A stretch of DNA of 64,000 bases from Limisphaerales bacterium (GTDB taxonomy: Bacteria; Verrucomicrobiota; Verrucomicrobiia; Limisphaerales; AAA164-E04). Positions 2,056 to 45,741 of the stretch are shown here, in pieces (positions within the stretch are counted from its first letter, which is position 1; the number at the start of each line of letters is the position of its first letter). The position numbers and the translations under genes are program-made. Under the pieces are notes generated by a model. It was not told the DNA's origin and did no database searches. It saw only the letters and a list, made by a program, of their open reading frames with translations. The DNA lies in assembly GCA_024761205.1 (NCBI GenBank), contig JAMASS010000010.1:1-64000 (forward strand), in the 5' to 3' direction.

Positions 2056-3786
2056 TCAAGCAGTAGGGCGCCAATGCAACAGTTTCAACTGAATGGATCG
2101 TCGCCCGTTGTATTCGTTGATCTCGGGCGCGAAAGCTAAATCGAAGTGTCCGGACGGCATGGGATTGGAGCCACAATTCCACCAGAGGACCTCCTTGCTG
2201 ACCTGCTCGTCCGTGACCCGAAACGTCGCGTGCTGGCCCTCTTTGCCCATCCGGTGCGGCAGGCTTTGCAACATGACGTTTTTTGTCACAAACTGAAGCG
2301 GTACATTCCCCGCCCCAAACGGACGCAGCCGAATCAACTCCTCCATCTGCGAGAGCCTCATCGCCCCTAACGGGACCTCGGCATCCAAGCTAATCATGGG
2401 GGCGAGGCATTCGCGAGAGATGTTTTCCTTGGCGTACTGGTTAATGCGGGACCGAAACGCATCCAGGTTTTCCGGCGCGATGGACAATCCCGCCGCCATG
2501 GCGTGGCCACCATGACGCAGCAGTAGACCCTCACACTCCCGAAGGGCCTCAGCCAGATCAAAGCCTTCAACGCTTCGACCAGACCCCCGGAGCTCGCTAC
2601 CCTCACCCCCAAGGATGATCGTGGGACGATAGAACTCACGTAACACCCGGGAGGCCACGATGCCGACCACCCCGACGTGCCATTCCACATCTCCCTGAAC
2701 GATGACAAAGTCCTCCGCAGCGTTGAATCGTTCTCGAACCGCACAAATGGCCTGATCCGCAATCCCCTTCTCAATCTGCTGCCGCTCCCGATTGCAAGCG
2801 TCCAACTCCAATGCCTGCTTTTTCGCAGCGGCAACATCATCACATAAAAGCAGGTTCAACGAAGCCATGGCATCCTCCAATCGGCCCGATGCATTGATTC
2901 TGGGCCCTAATTGGAAGCTGATTTCAAACACCCCAATCTGATCGCGCACATGGGCCACTTCCATGAGCGCCAATACCCCGACCCGCCGCGTTTGGTTGAG
3001 TCGATTCAAGCCGGAAGTGACCATGATGCGATTCTCCCGCACCAAAGGCACCAAATCCGCCACAGTCCCTAAGGCGACCAAATCCAGCAACGGTTTCAGG
3101 TCATAGTCATGCGCCGAGGATGGCTGATTGAGCTGACGACAGCGCTTGATAATCGCATGCGCTAGTTTGAACGCCAGGCCAACAGAACTCAACTCACAGA
3201 ACTGACCACCATTGATCTGAGGATTCACCAACGCTACCGCTGAGGGAGCCGGATCCGATACCTGATGATGATCCAAGACAATGACGTTGACCCCTTGTTC
3301 GTTGAGAAAGGCGATCGTATCAACAGCCGTCGACCCGCAATCGACGGCTAAGACCACCGCTGGTGAAAACCGCTTCAGACAGTTTTCAACGGCAGCACGG
3401 CTGAGGCCATAGCCTTCGTTGAGACGATGCGGCAGATAAAAATCCAAACGCCAACCGAATTCCTCCATAACCTCAATCAGCAGCGCCATCGACGTGACCC
3501 CATCCACGTCATAGTCACCAAAGACCACGACTTTCTCTTTCTGCTCGCGCGCTTGAAACAAGCGATCGATTGCCGCCTCCATGTTGGGAACCTCCAAGGG
3601 ATTGGCAAGATTCTTCAACTGCGGCCGAAGAAATCGATCGGCCTCGTTGGAATCCGCCAGCCCGCGGTTAATGAGACACTGAGCCAACAACTCCGAGACC
3701 CCCAAATCATGCGACAACCTTTCCGCTACGGAACGTTGTTGCCGAAATATGGACCACCGGAAATTCATGAGGTGCCGTGTATCCAC
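2056..3786 (-). CDS. recJ: Single-stranded-DNA-specific exonuclease RecJ
   Basis: RecJ degrades single-stranded DNA 5' to 3' in RecFOR recombination, mismatch repair and base-excision repair. The 576-residue protein is of usual length. The DHH phosphoesterase core is complete: VVVFGDYDVDGVTSMALL (motif I, about residue 85-103), AVDCGS (about 149), VIVLDHHQVSD (motif III, about 170) and the linker to the DHHA1 domain with GPRINASGRL (about 293). The DHHA1 end carries GSGRSVEGFDL and RHGGHAMAAGL near residues 407-437, followed by a C-terminal OB-fold. It lies downstream of yajC and secDF on the same strand, but about 630 bases separate it from secDF, so it may have its own promoter. Nothing looks damaged. 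Confidence 0.96.
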   Translation of the reverse strand: MDTRHLMNFRWSIFRQQRSVAERLSHDLGVSELLAQCLINRGLADSNEADRFLRPQLKNLANPLEVPNMEAAIDRLFQAREQKEKVVVFGDYDVDGVTSMALLIEVMEEFGWRLDFYLPHRLNEGYGLSRAAVENCLKRFSPAVVLAVDCGSTAVDTIAFLNEQGVNVIVLDHHQVSDPAPSAVALVNPQINGGQFCELSSVGLAFKLAHAIIKRCRQLNQPSSAHDYDLKPLLDLVALGTVADLVPLVRENRIMVTSGLNRLNQTRRVGVLALMEVAHVRDQIGVFEISFQLGPRINASGRLEDAMASLNLLLCDDVAAAKKQALELDACNRERQQIEKGIADQAICAVRERFNAAEDFVIVQGDVEWHVGVVGIVASRVLREFYRPTIILGGEGSELRGSGRSVEGFDLAEALRECEGLLLRHGGHAMAAGLSIAPENLDAFRSRINQYAKENISRECLAPMISLDAEVPLGAMRLSQMEELIRLRPFGAGNVPLQFVTKNVMLQSLPHRMGKEGQHATFRVTDEQVSKEVLWWNCGSNPMPSGHFDLAFAPEINEYNGRRSIQLKLLHWRPTA

Positions 3787-3831
3787 CCAGAATGCGCCGA
3801 CGCCAAAGAACTGACAAGGGAAAATCTTTAC

Positions 3832-4205
3832 TTACGCCCCAAGTCTATCTCGGCTTTTCGCAATATCACTTCGGCTTCCTCCTCGATCGGAGATCGACGA
3901 CATCGACAGAGGGGGAAATTCGGACATCCGAGAAGCTAAATCATCTGCCTTAATTTTTTCCAATGCGCTCTCCAGTGAAGCCATGTGCTGCGCGAATTCC
4001 TTTAGGTTCACCCAAGCCCTGATATTATCCTTGGCTACTATCCTGTTCGACAGCAGCCGCTGCCCTATCAAACGACACACCACTGTTGTCCGCCACTATC
4101 TCGAAAATGGCCATATCTCGGGCATCCGCACTGACCGGTTCTAAAAACAACAGGGTAGCCTTAACTTTCTTTAGAGATAACTTAGCATTGGTCAGAGATT
4201 CAGCT
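3832..4205 (-). pseudogene. Unrecognised frameshifted ORF between recJ and secDF
   Basis: Two adjacent minus-strand reading frames look like one protein broken by a single frameshift near 4045. The upstream piece (about 4205-4020) reads HKVAESLTNAKLSLKKVKA and continues to a stop just after VEQDSSQG. The downstream piece starts in another frame with NIRAWVNLKEFAQHM and runs to SMSSISDRG and a stop at 3832. Both pieces are helical and charged, with a coiled-coil flavour (LESALEKIKADDLASRM). I do not recognise the family. No good start codon is visible for the joined frame. The surrounding 600 bases are more AT-rich than the neighbouring genes. Confidence 0.3.
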
Positions 4206-4420
4206 ACCTTATGGACTTTTGCACTGCAATAGCATTACACAGTAGCTCGTTAAATATGATATCCAACGCTAGTGCTAACACCAAAACAGGAATCAACAAC
4301 GATTATCGCACGGTCACCCCACCCCAACTTGGGATTGAATCTACTGAATTGATCTTCTGTTTCTTTTTATATTGTCTCATTTATCTCCTTAATGTAATTG
4401 GATGAAGCTCTCACTCTCTC

Positions 4421-6952
4421 CTACCTCTTAGGCGAAGATATCAAACTCGATGTCTTGAGCATCACATCCGGCGAAGTCTCGGTAAGATCAGGTTTTTCTC
4501 CCTTGGTCCACCAAAGCACGATCGAGGAGGCAATATAGATACTGGAGTAAGTACCAGTAATGATGCCGATCAAAAAGGTAAACGAGAAGTCGTTGATAAC
4601 CGTTCCCCCAAACACGTAAAGCGATGCGGCAGCAAGAAAGGTCGTTCCCGAAGTAATGATCGTTCGGCTGAGACACTTGTTGAGGGCCGTATTCATGATA
4701 TCGCGAAAACTCCCACGCACGCCCAACCTCAGGTCTTCTCGGATACGATCAAAGATCACAATCGTATCGTTGATGGAAAAACCAATCACAGTCAGAATGG
4801 CCGCCACCATCGGGGCATTCAGCTCTCGACCGGTCAGGAAAAACCATCCGAGCGTCATCAGAATATCATGGATGACCGCCAAAACCGCTCCAATAGCGAA
4901 GGAAAACTCGTAACGCAGGGCGACATAAAACAGAATGCCGAACAAAGCCAAGACCACCGAAATAATCGCTGACTTCTGAATTTCCTTTCCAACCACGCCT
5001 CCCACTTTAGCCGTCTTCGCCAGTTTAAACTGCGCTTCCGGAAATTGTTCACTGAGCAGGTCAGCGATCTGCTGCCCAGTGCCGAACGCGCTGGTAATCT
5101 TCAACGTCTCTGCACCACTACCGATGTCTTGCTGATACGAGATCTGCGCACCGCCAATATCAAGCCCGTCTATGGCTGCTCGCAAATCACCGACTTCCAC
5201 CGTCTGTTCAAAACGAAAGACTTGGGAATCACCACCGGCAAAATCCACCCCAAGAACATTTCCACCCCGCATAAGCCCGAATCCAAGTCCCACGGCAATC
5301 AAAACCCAAGAGATGGCAAACCCTTGCTTCCACAACCGCATGAAGTCAAACTGGTGCTTGTGGAGAGGGCCCAGTTTGAACATGGAGACCGATCTCATCA
5401 TGCCGGCAGCCATAAGCCCTTGGAAAACCAGCCGGGTCACGACCAATGCCGTAAACATACTCGTGAGGATACCGATCGTTAGCGTGACACCAAACCCTTG
5501 AACGGGTCCTTTGCCCATGAAAATCAAGATGACTGACGCAATAAGCGTGGTCACGTTCGCGTCAAAGATCGTTCCAAACGCCTTGTTGTAGCCGGTGTCG
5601 ACGGCGCCACGGGTAGACTTGCCCGCCATAAGTTCCTCTCGAATGCGTTCGAGAATCAACACATTCGCATCCACTGCCATACCGATGGTGAGGACGACAC
5701 CGGCAATACCCGGAAGAGTGAGCGCGGCATCCACTGAACACAACACGCCCAGCAAAATAACAATGTTCAACAACAAGGCGAAATTGGCGATCAATCCCGC
5801 CAACAGATAGTACCCTGCCATAAATCCCGCCACGAAAATTAGCCCCACTGTCGAGGCTCGGATTCCCGACTGAATGGAGTCACGTCCCAAAGTGGGTTCC
5901 ACGGTCTGCTCTTCGACAATTTTAACCGGCGCTTCCAACGGATTTTCCAAGACATTGGCCAACTCAGAGGCTTCCTGAAGATTATAGTTTCCTGATATCT
6001 CCCCGCGCCCGCTGACAATCGGGTTCCGGATCACTGGAGCCGACTTCAACTCACCGTCCAAAACAATGGCTAGCTGCCGTCCGGTGTTGCTCGCCGTCAC
6101 GTCGGCAAAAATACTCGCCCCCTCCGAGGTCATCTGAAAAAGGATGAACGGCTTACCGGTTATATCATGACGCACATCCGCTTGGGCGAGATGCTTGCCG
6201 GTCAAACCTTGCTCGGGGTTTTTCTTTACCAAATACTCAACAGTACGCTCAGTCCCCTCCGGCCCCGGATCTTTGATCTTCTCGCTCAAAATCTCGTAGC
6301 CCGGAGCCAATATCCCTTGAGTCAACAATTGCTCGCTTTGTTCATGAACTAAACGGAATTCCAAGTGAGCGGCTTTTGTTAACCTCGTTCTGGCGCTTTC
6401 ATAGTCCACCTCGGAAAGCCCCGGAAGTTGAATCAAAATCCGGTCGTCCCCAACCGGTTGCAAGCTCGGTTCGGCCACACCAAACTTATCCACACGCGAT
6501 CGCAGCACATCAATCGCTTGAGCCAGTACCGCTGTCTTTTCCTGATCGGCTCGTAATTTGTTGGTCTCCATGGCGACCAAAAACGAGATCCCTCCCTGCA
6601 AGTCCAGACCAAGCCGAATCTCACCGGCCGCTTCTTCTTGAAGCCGGTTTAAAATCGCGCGATTCGGCACGTCGGCATCAGAAATGTCGATGGCGGGAAA
6701 CAAAGGCGTCAAATCAGTGGTGCCGACGGCATCCAAAAGATTTGCATATTCGCGCCCCGGATTTGCCGCTTCGAATTCACGGGCCTTGGCGATAATGGCG
6801 TCAATCTGTTCGATCTTGCTCGCGTCGCTCCGGTCGACATGCAACGCAAAATAATCCACCAAATTCTGGCTCTTCGGCGGATTCATCTCTGTAATCGCCC
6901 ACGCCACGACGAAGATCACAAAAAACCATTTCCAATAGTATCCTGATTTCAT
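4421..6952 (-). CDS. secDF: Fused protein translocase subunit SecDF
   Basis: SecD and SecF use the proton gradient to pull exported proteins out of the SecYEG channel. Here they form one 843-residue polypeptide. An N-terminal helix (WKWFFVIFVVAWAI) precedes the large SecD periplasmic part with GLDLQGGISFLV at about 118, a hallmark DLQGG motif. The P1 region ends near RNPIVSGRGEISG. SecD helices 2-6 follow, with TLPGIAGVVLTIGMAVDANV (D of the proton path). The SecF half begins near residue 535 (FDFMRLWKQGFAIS) and carries GVDFAGGD and the VIGFSINDTIVIFDRIRED motif. A short hydrophilic tail closes it. yajC lies 19 bases upstream on the same strand, the common operon order. Length and motifs look complete. 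Confidence 0.97.
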   Translation of the reverse strand: MKSGYYWKWFFVIFVVAWAITEMNPPKSQNLVDYFALHVDRSDASKIEQIDAIIAKAREFEAANPGREYANLLDAVGTTDLTPLFPAIDISDADVPNRAILNRLQEEAAGEIRLGLDLQGGISFLVAMETNKLRADQEKTAVLAQAIDVLRSRVDKFGVAEPSLQPVGDDRILIQLPGLSEVDYESARTRLTKAAHLEFRLVHEQSEQLLTQGILAPGYEILSEKIKDPGPEGTERTVEYLVKKNPEQGLTGKHLAQADVRHDITGKPFILFQMTSEGASIFADVTASNTGRQLAIVLDGELKSAPVIRNPIVSGRGEISGNYNLQEASELANVLENPLEAPVKIVEEQTVEPTLGRDSIQSGIRASTVGLIFVAGFMAGYYLLAGLIANFALLLNIVILLGVLCSVDAALTLPGIAGVVLTIGMAVDANVLILERIREELMAGKSTRGAVDTGYNKAFGTIFDANVTTLIASVILIFMGKGPVQGFGVTLTIGILTSMFTALVVTRLVFQGLMAAGMMRSVSMFKLGPLHKHQFDFMRLWKQGFAISWVLIAVGLGFGLMRGGNVLGVDFAGGDSQVFRFEQTVEVGDLRAAIDGLDIGGAQISYQQDIGSGAETLKITSAFGTGQQIADLLSEQFPEAQFKLAKTAKVGGVVGKEIQKSAIISVVLALFGILFYVALRYEFSFAIGAVLAVIHDILMTLGWFFLTGRELNAPMVAAILTVIGFSINDTIVIFDRIREDLRLGVRGSFRDIMNTALNKCLSRTIITSGTTFLAAASLYVFGGTVINDFSFTFLIGIITGTYSSIYIASSIVLWWTKGEKPDLTETSPDVMLKTSSLISSPKR

Positions 6953-9109: not shown

Positions 9110-10564
9110 GTGAGCCGGATCAATCAGCTTTATTACGGCGATTGCCTGACTGTTATGCAGGATAATTTGGGGCCGGGCAGCACGGACCTGATTTACCTCG
9201 ACCCGCCCTTCAACTCGAATAGGGCTTACAACGCTATCTATAAAGACGAGACCGGTCGTCCTTTGCCGGAACAGGTCGAGGTCTTTTGCAATCAATGGAC
9301 GTTGGACGGTGAGCGGATTCGCGCCATTGAGCAGTTGCCGGTGCTCATGCGGAAATCCGGCATTGATGATGACACCGCAGAGTTTTGGCGGCTTTGGATG
9401 AAGTCCCTGCGCCGGACGGACCCGAGGTTGTTGGCTTATCTCTCTTATATGACGGAGCGGCTCCTGCCTATGCGCGGCATCCTCAAACCCACCGGGCATT
9501 TACCTGCATTGCGACCCGACTGCCAGCCATTATATCAAGGTGATGTTGCACGGCGTGTTCGGGCACAGGAATTTCAGGAATGAATCGTGTGGGCGTATCG
9601 CACCGGCGGAGCGAGCAAACGGCATTGGCCGCGCAAGCACGATGTGCCACTGTTTTATACAAAGTCCGGTTTGTATAAGCATCACCTTATTCAAGAACAA
9701 ATCTTTTACCATAAGCCATTCTTTAGCGAACAGGTTGATGAACAAGGGCGCTATTTTGCAGATGTTTAAAATATATGGGACGATATAAAAGCCATTATCA
9801 ATATATCTAAAGAACGCCTCGGCTATCCCACGCAGAAGTCCTTGGCGTTGTTGGAGAGGATCATCAAGGCGAGATCGAATGAAGGTGATGTGGTGTTCGA
9901 CCCCTTCTGTGGGTGCGCCACTACCTTGGAGGCGGCGCATAGCTTGAAACGCCGCCGGATCGGAAGCGACATCGCCATCCACGCCATCAAGCGCGTGGCT
10001 ACGGCTCGACTGCATGATCGGCTCGGATTGAAGGAAGGGGTTGACTTCGTTATTGATAGCGTGCCAAGCACGCTTGAAGGGGCCATTGATTTATGGAAGC
10101 GAGACGCATATCACTTCCAGAAATGGGTGGTAGAGGAGGTGGACGGCTTCGTCACGACGAAGCGAGGCAGGGACGGACGCATCTACTTCGGGCGGTCAAG
10201 GAAGAAGTTGCGCTCGATGGTGTTGGAGGTGAAGGGCGGCGAGAATGTCAATATCAGCGTGGTGCGCCAGCTGCGAGGTGTCTTGGAACGTGAAGAGGCC
10301 GATATGGCCGGCCTGATCCTGATGCGCAATTTGAAGCCGCAGCAGAAAGCCGCCTTCAGCCGTGAGATGGCAATGGCCGGAGAGATGAAGGACAAACGCT
10401 GCCCTCGACTGCAACTCCTGAGTGTGCCGGACATTTTGGCGGGACGCCGCTTCAAATTGCCGGAGGCGCCCGCCGCACGTGGGTCCAAGCAGGGGCAGCT
10501 TCCCTCCCCACCGAAGCCTCTCCATGCCTCTAACTCATCATTGCGAAAACAAAAGCAGTATTGA
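9110..10564 (+). pseudogene. Frameshifted DNA methyltransferase fused to a PD-(D/E)XK nuclease domain
   Basis: A beta-class-like N6-adenine/N4-cytosine methyltransferase, broken into at least three frames. The start at 9110 is GTG. The first frame carries INQLYYGDCLTVMQ and DLIYLDPPFNSNRAYN (catalytic motif IV, DPPF) and fails near 9500. The continuation SHYIKVMLHGVFGHRNFRNE is in a second frame and stops; IVWAYRTGGASKRHW follows in another. An in-frame stop after GRYFADV precedes the long last frame from about 9770. That frame holds YPTQKSLALLERII and VVFDPFCGCATTLEAA, the SAM-binding motif I, which follows motif IV as in the beta class. The last 170 residues add a nuclease-like domain with GRDGRIYF and VLEVKGG (D ... 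E-x-K). An intact version would be a single-chain restriction-modification enzyme. Confidence 0.85.
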
Positions 10565-26552: not shown

Positions 26553-27467
26553 TTACTCCAGAAAGAAATCTTCGTCTATTTTTTTCAACTCAATGCTGCG
26601 GTTGATCTGCACCCCCACATTATACTTAAACATCAAATCAGTCAGTTTTTCGCCGTCGATCAAAATAATGGAAACGGGAACGCTTTTGGCATATTCGCGG
26701 GTCTGTCTGGAGAATGATGAAGTGGTGACAAAAACGCCCTTGTTCGCGGTTGCCTTGTTAGCCAAGCTGCCCACAAAGGCTTGAACGTCGGATCTACTGA
26801 TTGGGTGATCGGATGCATAGCGCTTGGCTTGAAAGTAAATCTGGTCGAGCCCCAATTTATCTTCATTGATTACGCCATCCACGCCGCCATCACCGGATTT
26901 TCCGAGATGCTTGCCTGCCTCTTCATCCAAGCCGCCGTATCCCATTGAAATCAGCAACTTCACAATCAGCTGTTCGAAGAATTCCGGCGATGCCTGCTGC
27001 ACCTTCGACAATAGCTCGGCTTTTATAGCGGCAGCGACTTCCGCGTAGGCATGTTCAATTCGTTCCTCCGGGGTCTCGGATTCATCCGTGCCGGTGTCGG
27101 ACGTGGCCAACGGTGCGCTGGGCGACTTATGCGTTTTGAATTCACGGAATTCCTGGTATTGTTCGAGAAACTTACAATCTATCTTGGCAGATGGCTTGGA
27201 AAGGGCGGCTTTGCCACGCTCCGTGGCCGTGAAGTAACCCCGTTTTGGTCTAATCAGGAGCTTGGCCTTTACTAGATAGGTGACAGCCCAACCGACCCGC
27301 CCCTTGACAGTGGTAATCCCTCCACTAGGTAAGAGCTGGGCTCTTTCCTCCTGCGTGAGACCGAATTCGTCAGCGAGTATTTTAACTGCTTCGTTCAGTT
27401 GAGTTGCCTTTTTGGCGCCCAACTTCAACACCGGAAGAATAAAAGATTGAAAATCTGGAATTGCCAT
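26553..27467 (-). CDS. mrr: Mrr-type restriction endonuclease
   Basis: A 304-residue enzyme of the Mrr group, which in E. coli cuts modified DNA. Residues 1-90 form the Mrr N-terminal winged-helix domain (MAIPDFQSFILPVLKLGAKK, ITTVKGRVGWAVTYLVKAKL, GYFTATERGKAAL). A charged linker follows. The C-terminal nuclease begins near residue 160 (LLSKVQQASPEFFEQLIVKL, ISMGYGG). It holds SGDGGVDGVI (catalytic Asp) and QIYFQAKRY (Q-x-K), the PD-(D/E)XK core, then VQAFVGSLANKATANKGVFV and TTSSFSRQTREYA. The gene has no methyltransferase partner nearby, which fits a stand-alone type IV enzyme. Imperfect 25-base direct repeats flank it and an IS630 element lies 290 bases upstream, so it may be an acquired island. 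Confidence 0.93.
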   Translation of the reverse strand: MAIPDFQSFILPVLKLGAKKATQLNEAVKILADEFGLTQEERAQLLPSGGITTVKGRVGWAVTYLVKAKLLIRPKRGYFTATERGKAALSKPSAKIDCKFLEQYQEFREFKTHKSPSAPLATSDTGTDESETPEERIEHAYAEVAAAIKAELLSKVQQASPEFFEQLIVKLLISMGYGGLDEEAGKHLGKSGDGGVDGVINEDKLGLDQIYFQAKRYASDHPISRSDVQAFVGSLANKATANKGVFVTTSSFSRQTREYAKSVPVSIILIDGEKLTDLMFKYNVGVQINRSIELKKIDEDFFLE

Positions 27468-27759: not shown

Positions 27760-28876
27760 TAAACATAACGACTTAAGTAATGCCGCATAATCGTTGCAGA
27801 ACACGGTTCGGTTTTCGCCATTGGTCGAAGCAGGCCTCCACAGCGGCCGACAACTCCTCCAGGCTGCTGAAGTAGAGATTGTGAGGCGCCAGCCGCCGCG
27901 TCGGTTTCCAAACTCTCTTGATCGGCGCGAGCTGTGGGCTGTAAGGCGGCAGAAACAGCAGGTTGAGATGCGCTCGGTGGGCTCTCAACAGTGGTTTGAG
28001 CAGCTTGGCGTGGTGGTGGCGTGCGTTGTCGAGAATGACGACCATTTTCTGGTTGCGCGAGCAGCGTCGGAGCAGCACCTTCAGGAACGCCTCGAATGTG
28101 GCGGCGTTGAACACCGGCGAAAGGGTGTGAACGAACTTGCCGCTGCGTAGACTGACAGCACCAAAGCAGGCGACGGACTGGCGCGTGGGCGACGACCGGA
28201 TCTTTTTCCTCGGGCGGAACCCAGACCCGACAGCGAGTACCGTGTCGTTGAAAATGGCATTCATCCTGACTCCACAGCTCAATGTCCTCGCGTCGTGCCG
28301 GACGGCGCAGTTTTCTTAAACGTGGCAAGGCGTTGCGGATCGGCCTGCGCCACCTGCGGACGCGGCTTTCGAAATCGAAACCCCATCTGCCTGAACAACC
28401 GCTGACACTGGCGCACCCCCAATTGCACATCGTAATGACGCCGCAAGTGTTCGGCGAGCAACCCGCCGTCCCACAAGTGCCCGGCCAAGCCGAAGTCATC
28501 CGGTCGGCAACGCAGGTCCCGCTCCGGCGACGACCATTGATCCGGCCTGAGCGTACGGGGACGACCGGTTCTTTCACCGTCGCGCAGCCCATCGAACCCC
28601 CTCTCCTCAAAGGCTCTGACCCAACGCTGCACCCTTCGCGGATCCTCATCGAACCATTGGGCGACCTGGCGGCAACTCTGCCCTTCGGTCACCAACAACA
28701 GGCCGTGAAGCCGGTGATCGTACCTCGACTCGTCCGAGCGTTGGATTTCCTGTTGTATGGCGATGCGCATCACATCGGCATCGGTAATCTCGAGCTTTCT
28801 CGCCACAGCTTTCATCTCGTGTCGGGGTGCTCGTATCGTACGCCATTATGCGACATAATTTAAGTCGCCTTGTTTA
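27760..28876 (-). mobile_element. IS630-family insertion sequence
   Basis: A complete element of about 1.1 kb with matching ends. The left end at 27762 reads AACATAACGACTTAAGTAAT and the right end, read inward on the other strand from 28874, AACAAGGCGACTTAAATTAT; the similarity continues through GCCGCATAAT against GTCGCATAAT. About 24 of 30 positions agree. A TA dinucleotide stands at each boundary (27760-27761 and 28875-28876), the target duplication expected of IS630. Inside is a single transposase, now frameshifted. Confidence 0.88.
27773..28815 (-). pseudogene. Frameshifted IS630 transposase
   Basis: A DDE transposase of about 345 residues spread over three frames. The N-terminal helix-turn-helix part (from 28815) includes GQSCRQVAQWFDEDPRRVQR and FDGLRDGERTGRPRTL. 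The frame changes near 28300 into KLRRPARREDIELWSQDECH (first catalytic Asp). It changes again near 28180 into FGAVSLRSGKFVHTLSPVFN, MVVILDNARHHHAK (second Asp) and FLPPYSPQLAPIKRVWKPTR. In active relatives the last motif reads LNPIERVWK with the third acidic residue; here it is Lys, a second defect. IS630 transposases sometimes use one programmed frameshift, but two shifts plus the lost Glu indicate a dead copy. Confidence 0.88.
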
Positions 28877-36605: not shown

Positions 36606-38888
36606 ATGCACAATAACTTCGTACGCTTCTTTTTGCGCGGTTGCCTCCTTGGGATTTTCATGCTCGGCGGTGCTTCATTCAGTTTGCCCCGGGCCGATGC
36701 CAAAGAGGTTGACGAGTCCAAATTAACCTTGAAACGCATCTTTGAGGGGGATGATTTCGCTGAAGAATCCTTCGGCCCGGCCCGTTGGCTGCCCGACAGC
36801 TCGGGATACGTGATCGTCGAGAAATCAGAGGGCAAGGCCGGCGGGAAGGACTTGGTGTTCTATGCGCCGGAATCGGACGAGAAAAAAGTATGGGTCGCAT
36901 CCCGCCACCTGATCCCTAGCGGTGAGACACAACCGTTGAGCATCGAGGATTATTCTTGGTCTTGCGATGGCGCTTACTTGTTGATCTATACGAATAGCCG
37001 CCGCGTTTGGCGGGCTAATACGCGGGGCGATTATTGGGTTTTTGATGTCACGAGTCACGAGCTGCGGCAGCTCGGCGGCGATGCGCTCCCGTCAACCTTG
37101 ATGTTCGCCGAGTTTTCTCCGGTGGACCACCGGGTCGCCTACGTGCACGAACGCAATCTTTTTGTGGAGGATTGGAAAGAGGGGACGATCACTCAACTGA
37201 CTCAAGACGGGGGCGAGCATCTGATCAACGGCACTTTCGACTGGGTCTATGAAGAAGAATTTCGTTTGCGCAAGGGGTATCAATGGAGCCCTGATGGTTC
37301 CAAAATCGCTTATTGGCAGATCAATACCGAGGGCGTTGGCGTGTTTCATCTGATCGATAATGTCGACGGCCTTTATCCGAAATTGATCCCGATTCCTTAT
37401 CCCAAGGCCGGCGAAAAAAATTCAGCCTGTCGAGTGGGGGTTGTGAGCGCCTCGGGGGGTAGGACCCGCTGGGTTCCCGTGCCGGGGGACCCGCGCAATC
37501 ACTATATTGCCTATCTGGATTGGGCGGATGATTCCGAAACGGTGATTGTCCAGCAGTTGAACCGGCTTCAGAATACCAACCGCTTGATGGTCTCAACTGC
37601 GGGGAGCGATGCGGTGGAAACGGTGCTGACAGATCGCGACGAGGCGTGGGTCGAGGAGGTGAAACCGTTGCGGTGGTTGGAAGACGGCGAACGTTTTCTG
37701 TGGCTGAGTGAGCGTGATGGATGGCGTCATTTGTACGTGGCCGATCGCTTCGGCCGCGAGTTTCGGCTGCTCACCAATGGCGATTACGACGTCATCGGCT
37801 TGGATGGGATCGATGAAAAGGAGGGATTGGTCTACTTTACAGCGTCTCCGGAAAACCCGACGCAGCGCTATCTTTACCGGATTCCCCTCGCGGGAGGCGA
37901 GGCCGTGCGGGTGAGCCCGAGCGAACAGCCGGGGGTTCACTCCTACCAAATGTCCCCCAACGGACGCTATGCCATCCATTCCTATTCGTCGGCGAACGAG
38001 CCTTTGGTTCGTGACTTGGTCGCGCTTCCTGAACACAAACTGCTCCGTCCGCTCACGGATAATTCCGAGTTGCGCGAGGCCTTGGGGAAGCTGGATCGGA
38101 ATCCGGTCGAATTTTTCCGGGTGGCGATTGCCGATGATGTCGCGCTGGACGCTTGGATGATGTCGCCGCCGAAAATCGATCCCGGAAAGAAGTACCCGCT
38201 ATTGGTGTTTGTCTACGGGGAACCGGCCGCTCAGACCGTGATGGATCGTTGGGGGGGGAAGCGCTACCTCTGGCACCTCATGCACACTCAAAACGGATAC
38301 TTTGTCACGAGCATCGATAATCGCGGCACGCCGGCGCCGCGAGGGCGCGGGTGGCGGAAGATCATCTATCGGCAAGTCGGCATCCTGGCGCCCAAAGATC
38401 AGGCCGCCGCCTTAGACCAACTGCTGGAACAACGCCCGCTGCTCGACCCCGAGCGCGTGGGCATCTGGGGCTGGAGCGGGGGCGGGTCCATGACCTTGAA
38501 CATGATGTTCAAATATCCGGAGAAATACGCCGTGGGAATGTCGATCGCTCCGGTGCCGAACCAACGTTTCTACGATACGATCTACCAAGAACGCTACATG
38601 GGATTGCCCAAGGACAATGTCGCCGGATTTCGAGACGGTTCGCCCATTCACTTTGCCGCCCGGCTAAGGGGAGACCTCCTGATCGTGCATGGCACGGGTG
38701 ATGACAATGTCCACTACCAAGGAACGGAGGCGTTGATCAATGAATTGGTGGCATTCAACAAACCGTTCACCATGATGGCCTATCCCAACCGGACCCATTC
38801 CCTCCGTGAAGGCGTCAACACCACACCCCACCTCTACGCCTTGTTGACCCGCTATCTCTATAAATCCCTGCCCGGCGGCGGACGCTAA
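36606..38888 (+). CDS. Secreted S9 family peptidase (dipeptidyl-peptidase IV-like)
   Basis: A 760-residue serine peptidase. The N-terminus is a signal peptide (FFLRGCLLGIFMLGGASFSL). Residues about 40-500 form the DPPIV N-terminal beta-propeller (SWSCDGAYLLIYTNSRRVWR, FDWVYEEEFRLRKGYQWSPD with the double Glu EEEF that anchors the substrate N-terminus). The alpha/beta hydrolase follows: GIWGWSGGGSMTLNMMFKYP with the nucleophile Ser near 623, Asp in HGTGDDNVHYQ near 699, and His in YPNRTHSLRE near 730. It should remove X-Pro or similar dipeptides outside the cytoplasm. The usual GWSYGG is GWSGGG here, a known variation. The gene stands alone and converges with the Sel1 cluster. Confidence 0.95.
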   Translation: MHNNFVRFFLRGCLLGIFMLGGASFSLPRADAKEVDESKLTLKRIFEGDDFAEESFGPARWLPDSSGYVIVEKSEGKAGGKDLVFYAPESDEKKVWVASRHLIPSGETQPLSIEDYSWSCDGAYLLIYTNSRRVWRANTRGDYWVFDVTSHELRQLGGDALPSTLMFAEFSPVDHRVAYVHERNLFVEDWKEGTITQLTQDGGEHLINGTFDWVYEEEFRLRKGYQWSPDGSKIAYWQINTEGVGVFHLIDNVDGLYPKLIPIPYPKAGEKNSACRVGVVSASGGRTRWVPVPGDPRNHYIAYLDWADDSETVIVQQLNRLQNTNRLMVSTAGSDAVETVLTDRDEAWVEEVKPLRWLEDGERFLWLSERDGWRHLYVADRFGREFRLLTNGDYDVIGLDGIDEKEGLVYFTASPENPTQRYLYRIPLAGGEAVRVSPSEQPGVHSYQMSPNGRYAIHSYSSANEPLVRDLVALPEHKLLRPLTDNSELREALGKLDRNPVEFFRVAIADDVALDAWMMSPPKIDPGKKYPLLVFVYGEPAAQTVMDRWGGKRYLWHLMHTQNGYFVTSIDNRGTPAPRGRGWRKIIYRQVGILAPKDQAAALDQLLEQRPLLDPERVGIWGWSGGGSMTLNMMFKYPEKYAVGMSIAPVPNQRFYDTIYQERYMGLPKDNVAGFRDGSPIHFAARLRGDLLIVHGTGDDNVHYQGTEALINELVAFNKPFTMMAYPNRTHSLREGVNTTPHLYALLTRYLYKSLPGGGR

Positions 38889-38904: not shown

Positions 38905-40026
38905 CTACTGCCGGGGAATCTGCTTGTCCAAGACCGCCGCTCGTGCCTGCCCCGCCGCCCGCTCCTCGGACGTCAATCGCTTTTCAAAAAGCTCAATGAG
39001 CCTCTCCGCCGCCCGTTGCTCGGACGTCAATCGCTTTTCAAGAAGCCCAATGAGCTTCTCCGCCTCATCGCCAAATCCCCGCGCCTTGCCCAACAACGCC
39101 CAAGCGTAACCCTCAACGTCATTCTGCGTCACACCCAGGCCCTCGTAATACATCAAGCCCAGTTTGAATTGCGCCATAGCACTCCCTTGGTGGGTGGCTT
39201 TCCGAAACCATCTGACCGCTTCGGTGTCATTCTTCGGCACGCCCTCGCCGTTAGTATACATCACACCCAGGTTGAATTGCGCCTCGGCATCCCCTTGCTG
39301 AGCGGCTTGGCGAAACCATCTGACCGCCTCGGCGTCATCCTGCGGCACGCCCTTACCCTCGGCATACATCCCGCCCAAAAGGCATTGTGCGTCGGCATCC
39401 CCTTGGTGGGCAGCTTTCCGAAACCATTGAATCGCTTCGGCGTCATCCTGCACCACTCCCACACCGTTGGCATACGCCACGCCCAAAAGGCATTGTGCGT
39501 TGGCATCCCCTTGGTGGGCAGCTTTCCGAAACCATCTGACCGCTTCGGTGTCATTCTTCGGCACGCCCTCGCCGTTAGTATACATCACACCCAGGTTGAA
39601 TTGCGCCTCGGCAATCCCTTGGTGGGCGGCTTTCCGAAACCATCTGACCGCCTCGGCGTCATTCTTCAGCACGCCCTCGCCATTGGTATACATCACACCC
39701 AGGTTGTATTGCGCCGTGGCATGTCCTTGCTGGGCGGCTTGGCGAAGGCGGGCGGGGTCTTCATTGGCGACGCTGCGAATGACAGGCGCCAAGAGCGTGA
39801 GCAGGGATAAGGCGCCGATGAGCCGAAACAGGAACGCCTTCCGTCCGATTCTCCTGAAATGAGGGAAATCGCCGGCCGGCTCGGGAGCGGGGTCCGAAGG
39901 CGCGTTGTCCTTGCCCTCCATTTTTTGCAGCCCTTGGGCCTCCTTCCACTGGCTGCCTCCGCAATTTTCCTTGACGGACTTGGGCTTGTTCCTATCCGGC
40001 TGCGTAAAAGTTCGAAGCGGTTTCAT
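38905..40026 (-). CDS. Sel1-repeat protein 1 (six repeats), membrane-anchored
   Basis: A 373-residue protein. N-terminal cytoplasmic part of about 65 residues (MKPLRTFTQPDRNKPKSVKE), then FRRIGRKAFLFRLIGALSLL TLLAPVI, a basic segment plus one helix that makes a type II anchor or uncleaved signal. Six Sel1 repeats of 36 residues follow (about 95-310), each of the form AAHQGxAxAQxxLGxxYxxGxGVxxDDAEAVxWFRK. A short helical tail holds two copies of a KRLTSExRAAxxLIELFE unit. Sel1 repeats form a TPR-like solenoid that binds proteins. It is the last gene of a tandem set of four; gene 2 stops 48 bases upstream and shares the N-terminal 100 residues and upstream DNA almost exactly. Confidence 0.9.
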   Translation of the reverse strand: MKPLRTFTQPDRNKPKSVKENCGGSQWKEAQGLQKMEGKDNAPSDPAPEPAGDFPHFRRIGRKAFLFRLIGALSLLTLLAPVIRSVANEDPARLRQAAQQGHATAQYNLGVMYTNGEGVLKNDAEAVRWFRKAAHQGIAEAQFNLGVMYTNGEGVPKNDTEAVRWFRKAAHQGDANAQCLLGVAYANGVGVVQDDAEAIQWFRKAAHQGDADAQCLLGGMYAEGKGVPQDDAEAVRWFRQAAQQGDAEAQFNLGVMYTNGEGVPKNDTEAVRWFRKATHQGSAMAQFKLGLMYYEGLGVTQNDVEGYAWALLGKARGFGDEAEKLIGLLEKRLTSEQRAAERLIELFEKRLTSEERAAGQARAAVLDKQIPRQ

Positions 40027-40066
40027 CCGCTTGAAGGTCCGGGATTTTTAAGAGCGTTTCAACTGA
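39767..40066 (-). repeat. Duplicated promoter and N-terminal block, copy 1
   Basis: About 300 bases nearly identical to 41756-42055: the first 85 codons of the Sel1 proteins and the 40 bases upstream (AGTTGAAACGCTCTTAAAAA on the coding strand). A diverged third copy lies at about 42560-42897. Identity in non-coding DNA shows recent duplication or gene conversion. Confidence 0.85.
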
Positions 40067-40074
40067 AATCCCGC

Positions 40075-42015
40075 CTACCGCCGGGGAATCTGCTTGTCCC
40101 ACGCCGCCGCCCGGTCCCGCCCCTCCGTCTGCTGCTCAGACGTCAGGGTATTTTTTTCAAGAATCTCAATGAGTTCCAGCTTCTCCGCATCGCCAAATCC
40201 CCGCGCCTTGCTCAACAAGAGCCAAGCGTAACCCTCGGTGAAATCCTCCGTCACGCCCTTGCCAAAGGCATAGGCCACGCCCAGGTTGACTTGCGCCTCG
40301 GCAAGCCCCTGCTGAGCGGCTTTCCGATACCATTGGGCCGCCTCGGCGTCATCTTGCGGCACGCCCACGCCGTTGGCATAGGCCACGCCCAAGTTGAATT
40401 GCGCCTTGGCATGGCCTTGTTCGGCGGCTTTCCGGTACCATTGGGCCGCTTCAACGTCATTCTTTGCCGTGCCTCGGCCACTGGCCTGCTTCCAACCCAG
40501 GAAGAATTGCGCCTTGGCATGGCCTTGCTGGGCGGCTTTCCGATACCACTTGACCGCCTCGGCGGGGTTCTGCAGCACGCCCTTGCCCTCGTCATATATC
40601 AGGCCCAGGCTGAATTGCGCCTCGGTATGGCCTTGCTGGGCGGCTTTCCGATGCCACTGGGCCGCCTCGGCGTCATCCTGCGGCACGCCCACGCCGTTGG
40701 CATAGGCTATGCCCAGGAAGGCTTGCGCCGTGGCATGGCCTTGCTGGGCGGCTTTCTGATGCCATTGGGTTGCCTCGGCGTCATCCTGCGGCACGCCCAC
40801 ACCCTGGAGATACCTCATGCCCAGGTTGAATTGCGCCTCGGCATAGCCTTGCTGGGCGGCTTTCCGAAACCATCGAATCGCTTCGGCGTCATCTTGCGGC
40901 ACGCCCACACCCTGGCCATACATCAAGCCCAAGTTGAATTGCGCCCCGGCATGGCCTTGCTGGGCGGCTTTCCGATGCCATCGAATCGCCTCAACATCAT
41001 CCTGCACCACGCCCACGCCCTGGAGATAGGCCATGCCGAGGAAGGCTTGCGCCCCGGCATGGCCTTGCTGGGCGGCTTTCTGATGCCATTGGGCCGCCTC
41101 GATGTCATCCTGCGGCACGCCCACACCCTGGAGATACCTCATGCCCAGGAGGAATTGCGCCGTGGCATGGCCCTGCTGGGCGGCTTTCTGATGCCATTGG
41201 GCTGCCTCGGCGTCATCCTGCGGCACGCCCCGGCCCTGAAGATAGACAGAGCCCAGGTTAAATTGCGCCTCAGCATAGCCTTGCTGAGCGGCTTTCCGAA
41301 ACCACCTGACCGCCTCGGTGTCATCCTGCGGCACGCCCACACCCTGGAGATACCTCACACCCAAGTTGAATTGCGCCTCAACATGGCCTTGCTGGGCGGC
41401 TTTCCGAAACCATTGGGCCGCCTCGGCGTCATCCTGCGGCACGCCTTCGCTCTGGCCATTATACATCCAGCCCAGGTTGTTTTGCGCCTCAGCATAGCCT
41501 TGCTGGGCGGCTTTCCGAAACCACTCGACTGCTTCGGCGAAATCCTGCGGCACGCCTTCGCCCTTGACATACGCCATGCCTAGGTTGTTTTGCGCTTCGG
41601 CATGGCCTTGCTGGGCGGCTTTCCGAAACCACCTGACCGCTTCGGCGTCATCCTGCGGCACGCCTTCGCCCTGCAGATAGACAGAGCCCAGGTTGTTTTG
41701 CGCCTCAGCATCCCCTTGCTGGGCGGCTTTCCGAAGGCGGGCGGGGTCTTCATTGTCGGCGGTGCGAATGACAGGCGCCAAGAGCGTGAGCAGGGATAAT
41801 GCGGCGATGAGCCGAAACAGGAACGCCTTCTGTCCGATTCTCCTGAAATGAGGGAAATCGCCGGCCGGCTCGGGAGCGGGGTCCGACGGCGCGTTGTCCT
41901 TGCCCTCCATTTTTTGCAGCCCTTGGGCTTCCTTCCACTGGCTGCCTCCGCAATTTTCCTTGACGGACTTGGGCTTGTTCCTATCCGGCTGCGTAAAAGT
42001 TCGAAGCGGTTTCAT
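40075..42015 (-). CDS. Sel1-repeat protein 2 (fourteen repeats), membrane-anchored
   Basis: A 646-residue protein. The first 100 residues are nearly the same as in Sel1 protein 1: cytoplasmic segment, then IGQKAFLFRLIAALSLLTLL as the membrane helix. Fourteen Sel1 repeats cover about 95-600. Most read AAQQGHAxAQxxLGxxYLQG then VGVPQDDAEAxxWxxK. Repeats 4-10 are especially alike, a sign of recent internal expansion. Repeat 3 has one extra residue (MYNGQSEGVP). The tail KARGFGDAEKLELIEILEKN is shared with the paralogues. The solenoid should lie outside the cytoplasm and bind a partner protein. Because the repeats are 108 bases long, the opposite strand also stays open for 574 codons; that frame is a shadow. 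Confidence 0.92.
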   Translation of the reverse strand: MKPLRTFTQPDRNKPKSVKENCGGSQWKEAQGLQKMEGKDNAPSDPAPEPAGDFPHFRRIGQKAFLFRLIAALSLLTLLAPVIRTADNEDPARLRKAAQQGDAEAQNNLGSVYLQGEGVPQDDAEAVRWFRKAAQQGHAEAQNNLGMAYVKGEGVPQDFAEAVEWFRKAAQQGYAEAQNNLGWMYNGQSEGVPQDDAEAAQWFRKAAQQGHVEAQFNLGVRYLQGVGVPQDDTEAVRWFRKAAQQGYAEAQFNLGSVYLQGRGVPQDDAEAAQWHQKAAQQGHATAQFLLGMRYLQGVGVPQDDIEAAQWHQKAAQQGHAGAQAFLGMAYLQGVGVVQDDVEAIRWHRKAAQQGHAGAQFNLGLMYGQGVGVPQDDAEAIRWFRKAAQQGYAEAQFNLGMRYLQGVGVPQDDAEATQWHQKAAQQGHATAQAFLGIAYANGVGVPQDDAEAAQWHRKAAQQGHTEAQFSLGLIYDEGKGVLQNPAEAVKWYRKAAQQGHAKAQFFLGWKQASGRGTAKNDVEAAQWYRKAAEQGHAKAQFNLGVAYANGVGVPQDDAEAAQWYRKAAQQGLAEAQVNLGVAYAFGKGVTEDFTEGYAWLLLSKARGFGDAEKLELIEILEKNTLTSEQQTEGRDRAAAWDKQIPRR

Positions 42016-42055
42016 CCGCTTGAAGGTCCGGGATTTTTAAGAGCGTTTCAACTGA
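41756..42055 (-). repeat. Duplicated promoter and N-terminal block, copy 2
   Basis: The partner of 39767-40066. The two differ at only a handful of positions over about 300 bases, including the non-coding part upstream of the start at 42015. Confidence 0.85.
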
Positions 42056-42089
42056 AATAATGGATGGCCCGCCTGAGGCATCATCCCGC

Positions 42090-42779
42090 CTACGGCTGGG
42101 GAATCTGCTTTTCCAAGACCATCGCTCGAGCTTGCCCTACCGCTCGCCGCCCGGTCGTCAAGCGCTTTTCAAAAAGCTCAATGAGCCCCTCCGCATGTCT
42201 ATGTCCCCGCGCCTTGCTCAACAACGCCCAAGCGTAACCCTCAACGTCATTTTGCGTCACGCCCAGGCCGTTGGCATACATCACGCTCAGGTTGCATTGC
42301 GCCTTGGCATGTCCTTGCTGGGCGGCTTTCCGAAACCATTTGACCGCCTCAACGTCGTCCTGCGTCACGCCCAAGCCCTTGGCATGCATCGCGCCTAGGT
42401 TAAATTGCGCCTTGGCATTCCCCTGCTCGGCGGCTTGGCGATACCATTGGGCCGCTGCAACGTCATTCTTTGCCGAGCCTCGGCCACTGGCCTGCCTCAA
42501 GCCCAGGGTGTATTGCGCCCAGGCATCTCCTTGCTCGGCGGCTTGGCGGAGGCGGGCAGGGTCTTCATTGGTAGCGGTGCGAATGACTGACGCCAAGAGT
42601 GTGAGCAGGGATAACGCGCCGATGAGCCGAAACAGGAACACCTTCCGTCCGACTCGCCTGAAACGACGGGAGCGGCTGCCTCGCCTGGAATGACGGGAAC
42701 TGCTGGCTGGATCAAAGGGCGGGGTCCAACGGCGTGTTGTCCTCGTTGCCCCCCATTTTTTGCGGTCCTTGAGCCTCAC
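42090..42779 (-). CDS. Sel1-repeat protein 3 (three repeats), N-terminus altered
   Basis: A 229-residue frame with the same membrane helix (VGRKVFLFRLIGALSLLTLL) and three Sel1 repeats. The start is doubtful. The DNA upstream is homologous to the starts of paralogues 1 and 2, but the ATG has become GTG and that frame (beginning xNPLRIFTHPDRGKPK) stops after about 25 codons. The coding frame then continues in another phase from MRLKDRKKWGATRTTRRWTP to SRSRRFRRVGRKVF, giving a basic, low-complexity leader unlike its paralogues. Translation may start at 42779 or nearer to the helix, or the gene may be decaying. The C-terminus (LSKARGHRHAEGLIELFEKR) matches the family. Confidence 0.7.
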   Translation of the reverse strand: MRLKDRKKWGATRTTRRWTPPFDPASSSRHSRRGSRSRRFRRVGRKVFLFRLIGALSLLTLLASVIRTATNEDPARLRQAAEQGDAWAQYTLGLRQASGRGSAKNDVAAAQWYRQAAEQGNAKAQFNLGAMHAKGLGVTQDDVEAVKWFRKAAQQGHAKAQCNLSVMYANGLGVTQNDVEGYAWALLSKARGHRHAEGLIELFEKRLTTGRRAVGQARAMVLEKQIPQP

Positions 42780-42942
42780 GGACTGCCTCCGTAATCTTCC
42801 TTGACGGACTTGGGCTTGCCCCTATCCGGATGCGTAAAAATTCGAAGCGGGTTCACCCGCTGAAGGTCTAGGATTTTTAAGAGCGTTTCAACTGAAATAA
42901 CGGATGGCCCACCCCCCGCCCCTCGGCCTCATAACGCCCCGC

Positions 42943-43908
42943 CTACTGCCGGGGAATCTGCTTGTCCAAAACCTCCGCCCGGGTCTGCCTCGCTGCCCGT
43001 TGCTCGGGTGTCAATAGCTTTTCAAGACTCTCAACGAGCATCTCCGCATATCCAAATCCCCGAGCCTTGCTTAACAAGTACCAAGCGTAACCCTCGGCGT
43101 CATTCTGCGGCACGCCCATGCCAAAGTAATACATCCGGCCCAGGTTAAATTGCGCCTCGGCAAGCCCTTGGTGGGCGGCTTTCCGATACCACTTGACCGC
43201 CTCAACGTCATCCTGCGGCACGCCCATGCCGTTGTCATACGCCCAGCCCAGGTTGAATTGCGCCCTGGCATGGCCTTGTTCGGCGGCTTTCTGATGCCAT
43301 TGGGCTGCCTCGGCGTCATCCTGCGGCACGCCCACACCCTGGAGATACCTCATGCCCAGGTTGAATTGCGCCTCGGCATCCCCTTGCTGGGCGGCTTGGC
43401 GGACAGTGTTTTCGTTTCCGAGCCATAAAAGCAAAAAACCGACAGCGACAAGTATCAAAAAAACTCGCACCACTCCGATGTTGGCCTTCTTAGGCTTTCG
43501 CCGCTGTTCTTGTTCTTGCTGTTCTTGTTGCCGGCGTTCCCTTGCTTGCCGGCGTTGGAATTCTTCGTTGCCTCGCCGGCGGTCGACTTCTTCCTGCTGT
43601 TTCCTCCGCTGTTCTTCTTCCTGTCTTCGCCGCTCGGCTTGCCGGCGTTGTCGTTGCGTTGTCGAAGGGTTCGGCCGGGGGCGTTGGCGGGGTGTTTCGC
43701 CGTTGACGAGATACCGCTTGAGCGCGTCACGGGCTTCGTTGAGGTCCTTGGTTTGTTCCTGGGCTTTGCGCTGCAAGTTGGGATTGTTGGGAAAACGGTC
43801 GGGATGCCAGACCTGAATGAGGTCACGCCAAGCTTCCTTGACTTGCGGCAGGGTTGCGCCCGGTTCCAGACCGAGTGTTTGGTAGGCGCGTTGGATTTCG
43901 TCGGTCAT
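42943..43908 (-). CDS. Membrane-anchored J-domain / Sel1-repeat protein
   Basis: A 321-residue protein with four parts. Residues 1-70 are a J domain (IQRAYQTLGLEPGATLPQVK, VWHPDRFPNNPNLQRKAQ, with the HPD motif that stimulates Hsp70 ATPase). Residues 72-145 are a highly charged helix rich in R, Q and E. One membrane helix follows (VVRVFLILVAVGFLLLWLGN, about 148-167). Three Sel1 repeats (about 172-280) and the family tail end the protein. The J domain must be cytoplasmic to reach DnaK, which puts the Sel1 repeats outside. It heads the four-gene Sel1 set on the minus strand and diverges from trkH. J-Sel1 fusions are known but the adaptor role here is inference. Confidence 0.92.
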   Translation of the reverse strand: MTDEIQRAYQTLGLEPGATLPQVKEAWRDLIQVWHPDRFPNNPNLQRKAQEQTKDLNEARDALKRYLVNGETPRQRPRPNPSTTQRQRRQAERRRQEEEQRRKQQEEVDRRRGNEEFQRRQARERRQQEQQEQEQRRKPKKANIGVVRVFLILVAVGFLLLWLGNENTVRQAAQQGDAEAQFNLGMRYLQGVGVPQDDAEAAQWHQKAAEQGHARAQFNLGWAYDNGMGVPQDDVEAVKWYRKAAHQGLAEAQFNLGRMYYFGMGVPQNDAEGYAWYLLSKARGFGYAEMLVESLEKLLTPEQRAARQTRAEVLDKQIPRQ

Positions 43909-44268
43909 GCGGGTTTATCGCTGGATGGTTTGGCCTTTCTTTGAGTGGTCTGGCGGGTGGATTTTCTTGCGTCGTGGGGGAGGAGTGTATCGGGTGTTGG
44001 GGGCGGAGGCAACGGCGAATGGCGTTCGCCGGGCAAGGGGTGTTCCGTTGCGGCGGGGTTTTTGAAGCCGGGCCGTGGGGAGGGCGAGGGTTTGGGTTGG
44101 CGTTTTTTTCTCGTCGGCCGAGGCGGAGGGCGGGTTAATGCCTTGATTGCGCCGGCGCGCCCGGATAGGTTCTCGGCCCGGCGGCGGTTGAGGCTTTGCC
44201 GTTGTTCCGGGGCGTTCACGGTGGCGGGGGGGGATGCTCGGCTATGTTGCGCGCCTTGGCTCCAAGGA

Positions 44269-45741
44269 ATGAATCTTAGAATCTTGAGTAAGCTGATCGG
44301 CGTGCTGCTGATTCTTTTGGCGGTTTCCCAAGGGGTGTGTCTGGCTTTTTCGATTTGGCGCGGGGAATTCGCCGAGGGGTTGGATGCGGTTGAGGCTTTT
44401 TCGATTTCCATTGGTTTGGCTCTGATTTCCGGTTTGGCGTTTTTTGTCTTGGGACGAGACTCCGGCAATGAGTTGTTGCGGCGCGAGTCGGTTTCTGTGG
44501 TGGGCCTTGGGTGGATTTTCTGCACGCTTTATGGAGCGCTTCCTTATCTGTTGTGCGAACCGCGGATGAGTCTGGCCGACGGCTTGTTTGAGTCGGTGTC
44601 CGGATTTACGGCTACGGGGGCGACGGTGATTGAGGATTTGGAGCGGTTGCCCAAGAGTTTGCTTCTTTGGCGAGGGCTGACTCAATGGCTTGGGGGGATG
44701 GGCATCCTGGTGTTGTTTGTGGCGTTGCTTTCATCGTTTGGAGCGGGGAGCAAGGCGCTGTTTCGGCACGAATCGTCGACTGTTGAAACGGAGGGTTTGA
44801 GTCCGCGGATTCAATGGATTTCACTGCAACTGTGGGGGATTTACGTTTTTCTTTCGCTGATCTGTTTTTTGGGTATGCGGCTGCTGGGGATGGGGAGTTT
44901 TGATGCGGTTTGTCACACTTTTACGACTGTGGCCACCGGCGGGTTTAGCACTTATAATGATAGTGTCGCTCATTTTGACAGTTTTGCGATTGAGCTCTGG
45001 ATCGAGTTGTTCATGCTTCTCGGCGCGATGAATTTCATGCTGTACGCGTGGCTGCTCCGACGTCAGTGGGATCGTTGGCGGCAGGATGAAGCGAGCAAGG
45101 CACTGCTGCTGATTTTGAGTTTGGCCGCCTTAGTTATTGCGTTGAACCTCGTTTGGAGCGACGTTGATCTTTCGTATCTGGAAAGCTTCCGTCAGGCCCT
45201 TTTTCAGGTGATTGCGATTATGACGACCACCGGATTCACCACGGCGGACTATGATCAATGGCCCGCTTTTTCCGTGATTCTGCTGGTGGCGTTGATGGTC
45301 ATCGGGGGGTGCGCGGGTTCTACCTCCGGCGGGCTGAAGGTGGGGCGAATGGTGCTTTTCTTCAAGATCGTTCGCTATCAGCTCCGGACCGGTTTCCGAC
45401 CGAATCAGGTCATGAAGTTGAGGCTGAACGGGAATGCGGTGTCGGAATCGTTTCGGATAGACACGCTGTTCCTGATCGCAACGGCTGCCATTTCCTTGTT
45501 GCTGGGCACGGTTGTGGTGAGTTGTTTGCAGCCGGGGTTGGATGTGCGGAGTTGCTTTTCCTCGGCGTTGGCGACCCTGTTTAACATTGGTCCGGCCTTG
45601 GGCGAAGTCGGACCGACTCGAACTTACGCCGACCTCAATGGTGTGACGAAGGTCTTCTTGTCCTGCTTGATGGTCTTGGGCCGTCTGGAATTCTACGCCT
45701 TGTTGGTTTTGTTCATGCCGTCCCTCTGGAGGCGCTATTAG
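44269..45741 (+). CDS. trkH: TrkH family potassium uptake protein
   Basis: The ion-conducting subunit of the Trk system, 490 residues. I take ATG 44269 (CAAGGA ribosome site just before) and not the far upstream 43945, whose extra 108 residues are low-complexity GC-rich translation. Helices begin with ILSKLIGVLLILLAVSQGVC. Selectivity-filter loops: SVSGFTATGATVIEDLERLP (about 105), VCHTFTTVATGGFSTYNDSV (about 215), IAIMTTTGFTTADYDQWP (about 313) and a fourth near CFSSALATLFNIGPALGEVG. GGCAGSTSGGLKVGRM (about 345) is the conserved loop. The NAD-binding partner TrkA is not adjacent; the Kef proteins carry TrkA-N domains but are unlikely partners. Confidence 0.94.
   Translation: MNLRILSKLIGVLLILLAVSQGVCLAFSIWRGEFAEGLDAVEAFSISIGLALISGLAFFVLGRDSGNELLRRESVSVVGLGWIFCTLYGALPYLLCEPRMSLADGLFESVSGFTATGATVIEDLERLPKSLLLWRGLTQWLGGMGILVLFVALLSSFGAGSKALFRHESSTVETEGLSPRIQWISLQLWGIYVFLSLICFLGMRLLGMGSFDAVCHTFTTVATGGFSTYNDSVAHFDSFAIELWIELFMLLGAMNFMLYAWLLRRQWDRWRQDEASKALLLILSLAALVIALNLVWSDVDLSYLESFRQALFQVIAIMTTTGFTTADYDQWPAFSVILLVALMVIGGCAGSTSGGLKVGRMVLFFKIVRYQLRTGFRPNQVMKLRLNGNAVSESFRIDTLFLIATAAISLLLGTVVVSCLQPGLDVRSCFSSALATLFNIGPALGEVGPTRTYADLNGVTKVFLSCLMVLGRLEFYALLVLFMPSLWRRY

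Follow-up and report, generated by a model that had tools for sequence, protein, structure and literature searches.

The J domain of DjlA is anchored to the inner membrane; the protein has an N-terminal helix, carries this domain at its C-terminus and lacks Sel1 repeats. Sel1 solenoids outside the cytoplasm are found in HcpB/HcpC, ExoR, AlgK, MotX and MerG, which have no J domain. The two elements are combined in SflA of Vibrio alginolyticus, in which a cleaved signal peptide and an N-terminal, periplasmic TPR/SLR domain are followed by one helix and a C-terminal, cytoplasmic J domain; it is described as Vibrio-specific, has a role in flagellation, and is modelled as passing on binding in the envelope to its J domain (review PMC7226244). 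SflA was the sole find of our literature search for bacterial J/Sel1 fusions.

Here, we describe a cluster of four Sel1-repeat genes in a Limisphaerales bacterium, located in a stretch of 64,000 nucleotides (contig JAMASS010000010.1) that is termed the window. The first of the four, gene 1, is predicted from charge and hydrophobicity to resemble SflA in having one membrane helix, a Sel1-like domain outside and a J domain inside. It differs in that the domain order is reversed, the J domain being N-terminal and the Sel1 repeats C-terminal. A structure search with gene 1 retrieved the periplasmic domain of SflA (PDB 6IF6) at rank 50 (E 0.016, 15% identity), and because this fold match is weak the comparison is one of analogy, not homology. 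Gene 1 also shares with DjlA-type proteins the predicted tethering of a J domain to the inner membrane, and scores 23.8 bits over its J domain against the NCBIfam DjlA equivalog, for which the cut-off is 162. Sequence or structure matches link the cluster to the extracytoplasmic Sel1 families, whose scores lie below the family cut-offs except for that of gene 3 with MerG (354.4, summed over eight repeat matches, against a cut-off of 350; genes 1, 2 and 4 score 91, 86 and 175). Identities as MerG, ExoR, MotX or AlgK (NCBIfam) were rejected as generic Sel1 similarity. J+Sel1 proteins are present in 15 other genomes of the same taxonomic order, 13 of them with a membrane helix; such proteins, for example L139, L141, L145 and L146, share with gene 1 an N-terminal J domain, a single helix and C-terminal Sel1 repeats. 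They differ from it in being encoded by lone genes, and their J and Sel1 parts are not its closest relatives in the respective trees, so the gene 1 fusion may be a separate one.

Layout of the cluster and topology of its products

The cluster spans positions 38905-43908 and comprises four minus-strand open reading frames between two plus-strand genes:

42943-43908, minus strand: gene 1, 321 aa, DnaJ domain and three Sel1 repeats (Pfam, AlphaFold, hydrophobicity and charge)
42090-42779, minus strand: gene 2, 229 aa from a GTG start, hydrophobic segment and then three Sel1 repeats (Pfam, alignment)
40075-42015, minus strand: gene 3, 646 aa, hydrophobic segment and then 14 Sel1 repeats (Pfam, tandem repeats)
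38905-40026, minus strand: gene 4, 373 aa, hydrophobic segment and then six Sel1 repeats (Pfam, tandem repeats)
36606-38888, plus strand: left flank, S9/DPP-IV type peptidase, which adjoins TrkH in another genome of the genus
44269-45741, plus strand: right flank, TrkH cation transporter, its start set by comparison with relatives

The original prediction had placed 3, 3, 14 and 6 Sel1 repeats, in transcription order, in four genes on one strand, with a J domain in the first only; Pfam gives the same counts and coordinates, and finds DnaJ in gene 1. The tandem 36-residue repeats exceed the curated Sel1 cut-off in all four proteins, and the whole-protein E-values of genes 2, 3 and 4 (9e-26, 5e-156 and 2e-70) are far beyond chance. 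Scans for sigma-70 promoters and terminators returned matches no more numerous than in shuffles.

The DnaJ match of gene 1 (Pfam E 2.9e-9, 37.3 bits against a cut-off of 27.8) corresponds to a J domain at about residues 5-65 with an intact HPD motif at 35-37, followed by a charged helical linker, a membrane helix (about 144-163), three Sel1 repeats and a C-terminal helical cap. The AlphaFold model (mean pLDDT 89) shows a J fold with helices at 20-33 and 43-69, in which HPD sits between helices II and III. After it come a long helix rich in charge, a helix at 144-174 with the membrane segment inside it, and a Sel1 solenoid. The hydrophobic segment is 19 residues long with a mean Kyte-Doolittle value of 2.64, and six lysines or arginines lie in the 15 residues before the membrane helix as against one after it. 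The strong single helix and this positive-inside charge predict the J domain inside and the Sel1 repeats outside, in line with the topology first proposed; gene 1 is thus probably a J-in/Sel1-out membrane protein. The host genome encodes a classical DnaJ and has full-length Hsp70 genes on contigs C9 and C71.

A single hydrophobic segment precedes the Sel1 repeats in all four proteins. The proposal that each has a cytoplasmic N-terminal part and one membrane helix holds to this extent, with both the anchor and the N-terminal length uncertain in genes 2-4. Their hydrophobic core, LIGALSLLTLLAPVI, is only about 15 residues long with arginine on either side, and a cleaved signal peptide and a stable anchor are therefore equally possible. 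In gene 4, SVA could serve as a cleavage site, and a Sel1 relative elsewhere in the host genome (L041) starts with what resembles a normal signal peptide ending AFA/AVD. Export of the Sel1 repeats is likely for all four proteins, and genes 2-4 probably encode envelope Sel1 proteins, either anchored or secreted.

The starts of genes 2-4 are associated with a duplicated leader of about 140 bp:

42777-42913, minus strand: leader of gene 2, upstream of the gene, 89% identical to the gene 3 leader
41930-42075, minus strand: leader of gene 3, upstream of and overlapping the gene start
39941-40069, minus strand: leader of gene 4, upstream of and overlapping the gene start, 100% identical to the gene 3 leader over 129 bp

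For genes 3 and 4 the annotated start falls inside this leader, which is out of frame in gene 2, and the length of their N-terminal parts is unsure for this reason. The N-terminal part of gene 2 is frameshifted relative to genes 3 and 4 by several indels. At E 0.01 the genome holds three copies of the leader, all before genes 2, 3 and 4, and its identification as a dispersed mobile element was rejected on these grounds. A diverged version, visible by eye, lies upstream of a Sel1 gene on contig C15 (L043).

The leader also contains a hairpin, at 42861-42846 and at the corresponding positions before genes 3 and 4. It reads AGCGGGTGAACCCGCT, followed by TCGAATTTTT in gene 2 and by AAGCGGATGAAACCGCTT in genes 3 and 4; it varies between leader copies yet still pairs, and its loop holds the ATG annotated as the start in genes 3 and 4. 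It is possibly an attenuator, or due to chance, terminator-like matches being equal in number to those in shuffles.

Origin of the cluster and of the gene 1 fusion

In a single-contig genome of the same genus (G001), the S9 peptidase and TrkH genes lie 200 bp apart with no Sel1 gene between them. The empty-site comparison rests on this one genome because the flanking genes are not adjacent in two others, being in another order in G003 and on separate contigs in G002, and the empty site could reflect loss in G001 instead of gain at the cluster. Elsewhere in G001, at 2291-5959 of locus L155, a protein of 1222 aa has about 24-28 Sel1 repeats, another large expansion.

Recent tandem duplication of genes 2-4 is indicated by their shared leaders, by 97.5% identity between genes 3 and 4 at their 5' ends, by repeats in gene 3 with up to 91% DNA identity among themselves, and by a 54-bp segment duplicated in tandem within the C-terminal tail of gene 4. 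The suggestion that the locus has been expanding is borne out by this local duplication, leaders included. Conservation of the four genes as a system was not found: G001 has the empty site, J+Sel1 genes elsewhere are nearly always lone, and the gene neighbourhood, whose absence from relatives had been named beforehand as grounds for refutation, shows no conservation.

Gene 1 is a mosaic of three parts:

43674-43913, minus strand: J-coding part, 76% DNA identity to a Sel1-less J paralogue (L042) on contig C45
43404-43673, minus strand: linker and membrane helix, matching neither the J paralogue nor genes 2-4 at DNA level
42938-43403, minus strand: Sel1-coding part, 77-88% DNA identity to genes 2-4 and to L043 on contig C15

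The partner of gene 1 in the J tree is the Sel1-less C45 paralogue (support 100/99), and in the tree of the Sel1 tail, built on the final two repeats plus tail, two other host genes fall into one group with genes 1-4 (89/99). Both trees come from short alignments and have many open forks. On the J tree, the Sel1 label needs seven changes, at least two of which are forced by well-supported branches. The simplest reading of these comparisons is that gene 1 is a separate local fusion; the J domain could, in the opposite direction, have been lost from genes 2-4. L042, the paralogue nearest to gene 1 in its J part, is predicted to have several helices and lacks an ectodomain.

Two host Sel1 genes outside the window may be mentioned here. 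L043 (minus-strand frame 2273-3139), the nearest to gene 1 in the tail, has an apparent frameshift near its start. In L044 (contig C8, minus-strand frame 1242-2927), the region after the Sel1 repeats looks similar to a trypsin-like protease domain and has a GNSGGPV motif.

Distribution of the J module

A homologue search with full-length gene 1 gave mostly unrelated Sel1 proteins, and the J part was therefore searched alone. At E 1e-7 this J type occurs in 52 of the 320 genomes of the order, own included, with no relative detected at this threshold in the other genomes of the genus (0/3) or family (0/7); in a sample of the phylum, five of 388 genomes, again counting the own, pass E 1e-8. Among the 52 J proteins of the order outside the own genome, HPD is kept in 46, a helix follows within 130 residues of the J domain in 38, at least two Sel1 repeats are present in 15, and both helix and repeats in 13. 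Pfam confirmed DnaJ plus Sel1 in seven of nine J+Sel1 proteins tested. When the flanks of 16 J+Sel1 loci were extended, one (L152) had a directly adjoining Sel1 frame, an in-frame continuation just past the stop, and another (L154) had a weak two-repeat Sel1 match in a multi-helix protein several kb from the J+Sel1 gene.

The J module is joined to other ectodomains as well, namely NHL with Ig, Golvesin_C and a glycosidase-like 3-keto-disaccharide hydrolase, and also to a sulfatase-modifying FGE-sulfatase domain without a helix. The type extends to cyanobacteria, acidobacteria, Nitrospirota and others, most cyanobacterial members being without a helix; Sel1 is in frame with J in two of the best 80 named loci, both verrucomicrobial. 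Tentatively, gene 1 could be one of a modular and so far unrecognised class of J proteins of the inner membrane in this order (cytoplasmic J domain, one helix and exchangeable ectodomains such as Sel1, NHL/Ig, Golvesin_C and glycosidase-like ones) that would tie envelope events to local DnaK, and in which the J+Sel1 fusion would have arisen more than once.

Five J-helix members (L138, L056, L100, L132 and L104) have lost HPD and kept the helix, which hints at roles without Hsp70 stimulation.

Possible function, rival explanations and other features of the window

The reading that we favour, with real doubt attached, is that the cluster is a young, lineage-specific Sel1 expansion lying between two genes that adjoin each other in a relative, with gene 1 a J-Sel1 fusion coupling envelope binding to DnaK. 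Genes 2-4 would be tandem duplicates, leader included, with a variable number of 36-residue repeats, and gene 1 would have joined a membrane-tethered J domain, nearest to the Sel1-less host paralogue, to a Sel1 solenoid like those encoded beside it. The solenoid would bind a protein or glycan partner in the envelope, and the J domain would recruit and stimulate cytoplasmic DnaK at the same spot, so that, in the manner modelled for SflA, binding outside would be linked with chaperone action inside. Genes 2-4 would act as independent or competing adaptors. The sequence data show the architecture, the charge topology, the mosaic origin, the empty site and the recurrence of J+Sel1 fusion; expression, localisation, partners, stimulation of DnaK and any cooperation among the four genes are what we infer.

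A different role for genes 2-4 would follow if the four genes were a functional unit, in which the J protein of gene 1 serves a periplasmic scaffold made by the solenoids of genes 2-4 and links a cytoplasmic chaperone cue to extracytoplasmic complexes. We regard this as distinctly unlikely. Location on one strand, short intergenic gaps, similar Sel1 tails and a J part in the first gene only are all compatible with it; the cluster is, however, not conserved in the genus or family, J+Sel1 proteins of other families stand alone, and genes 2-4 each have their own duplicated leader, with duplication explaining their similarity. Neutral expansion, by which repeat-rich genes were duplicated and recombined and the J fusion arose in passing, the set having hardly any function or none and some of its copies undergoing decay, is a somewhat better but still rather unlikely account. 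It draws on the frameshifted N-terminus of gene 2, the 54-bp duplication in gene 4, the varying repeat numbers, the absence of the cluster from relatives and the apparent frameshift at the start of the C15 relative, and is opposed by repeat regions that stay open over 229-646 codons in all four genes, and by the retention in gene 1 of HPD and a strong membrane helix despite 24% DNA divergence from the J paralogue.

That the N-terminal J domain merely recruits DnaK near the translocon, keeping its own long ectodomain export-competent with no sensing involved, seems very unlikely to us. The J module and helix precede unrelated ectodomains in related genomes (NHL with Ig, Golvesin_C and the hydrolase), and such a general role would account for the absence of a common one, but the closest J paralogue has several predicted helices with no ectodomain, and the FGE-domain relatives and most cyanobacterial members are without a helix.

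Under the favoured reading, the tandem set would be an example of repeat genes expanding and acquiring new N-terminal modules. The J-helix-ectodomain pattern in the order matters more than the tandem set: if it is true that J-helix proteins relay envelope signals to DnaK, as SflA is proposed to do, there would be more transmembrane chaperone receptors in bacteria than recognised.

Elsewhere in the window, a DNA methylase at 9110-10564 is apparently split over two frames, Pfam recognising the second part only, and a partial IS1595-type transposase lies at 400-927. A further transposase, presumably IS630-like, occupies two overlapping frames at 27773-28815 (an HTH part and a DDE_3 part), with an Mrr-type restriction gene nearby at 26553-27467.
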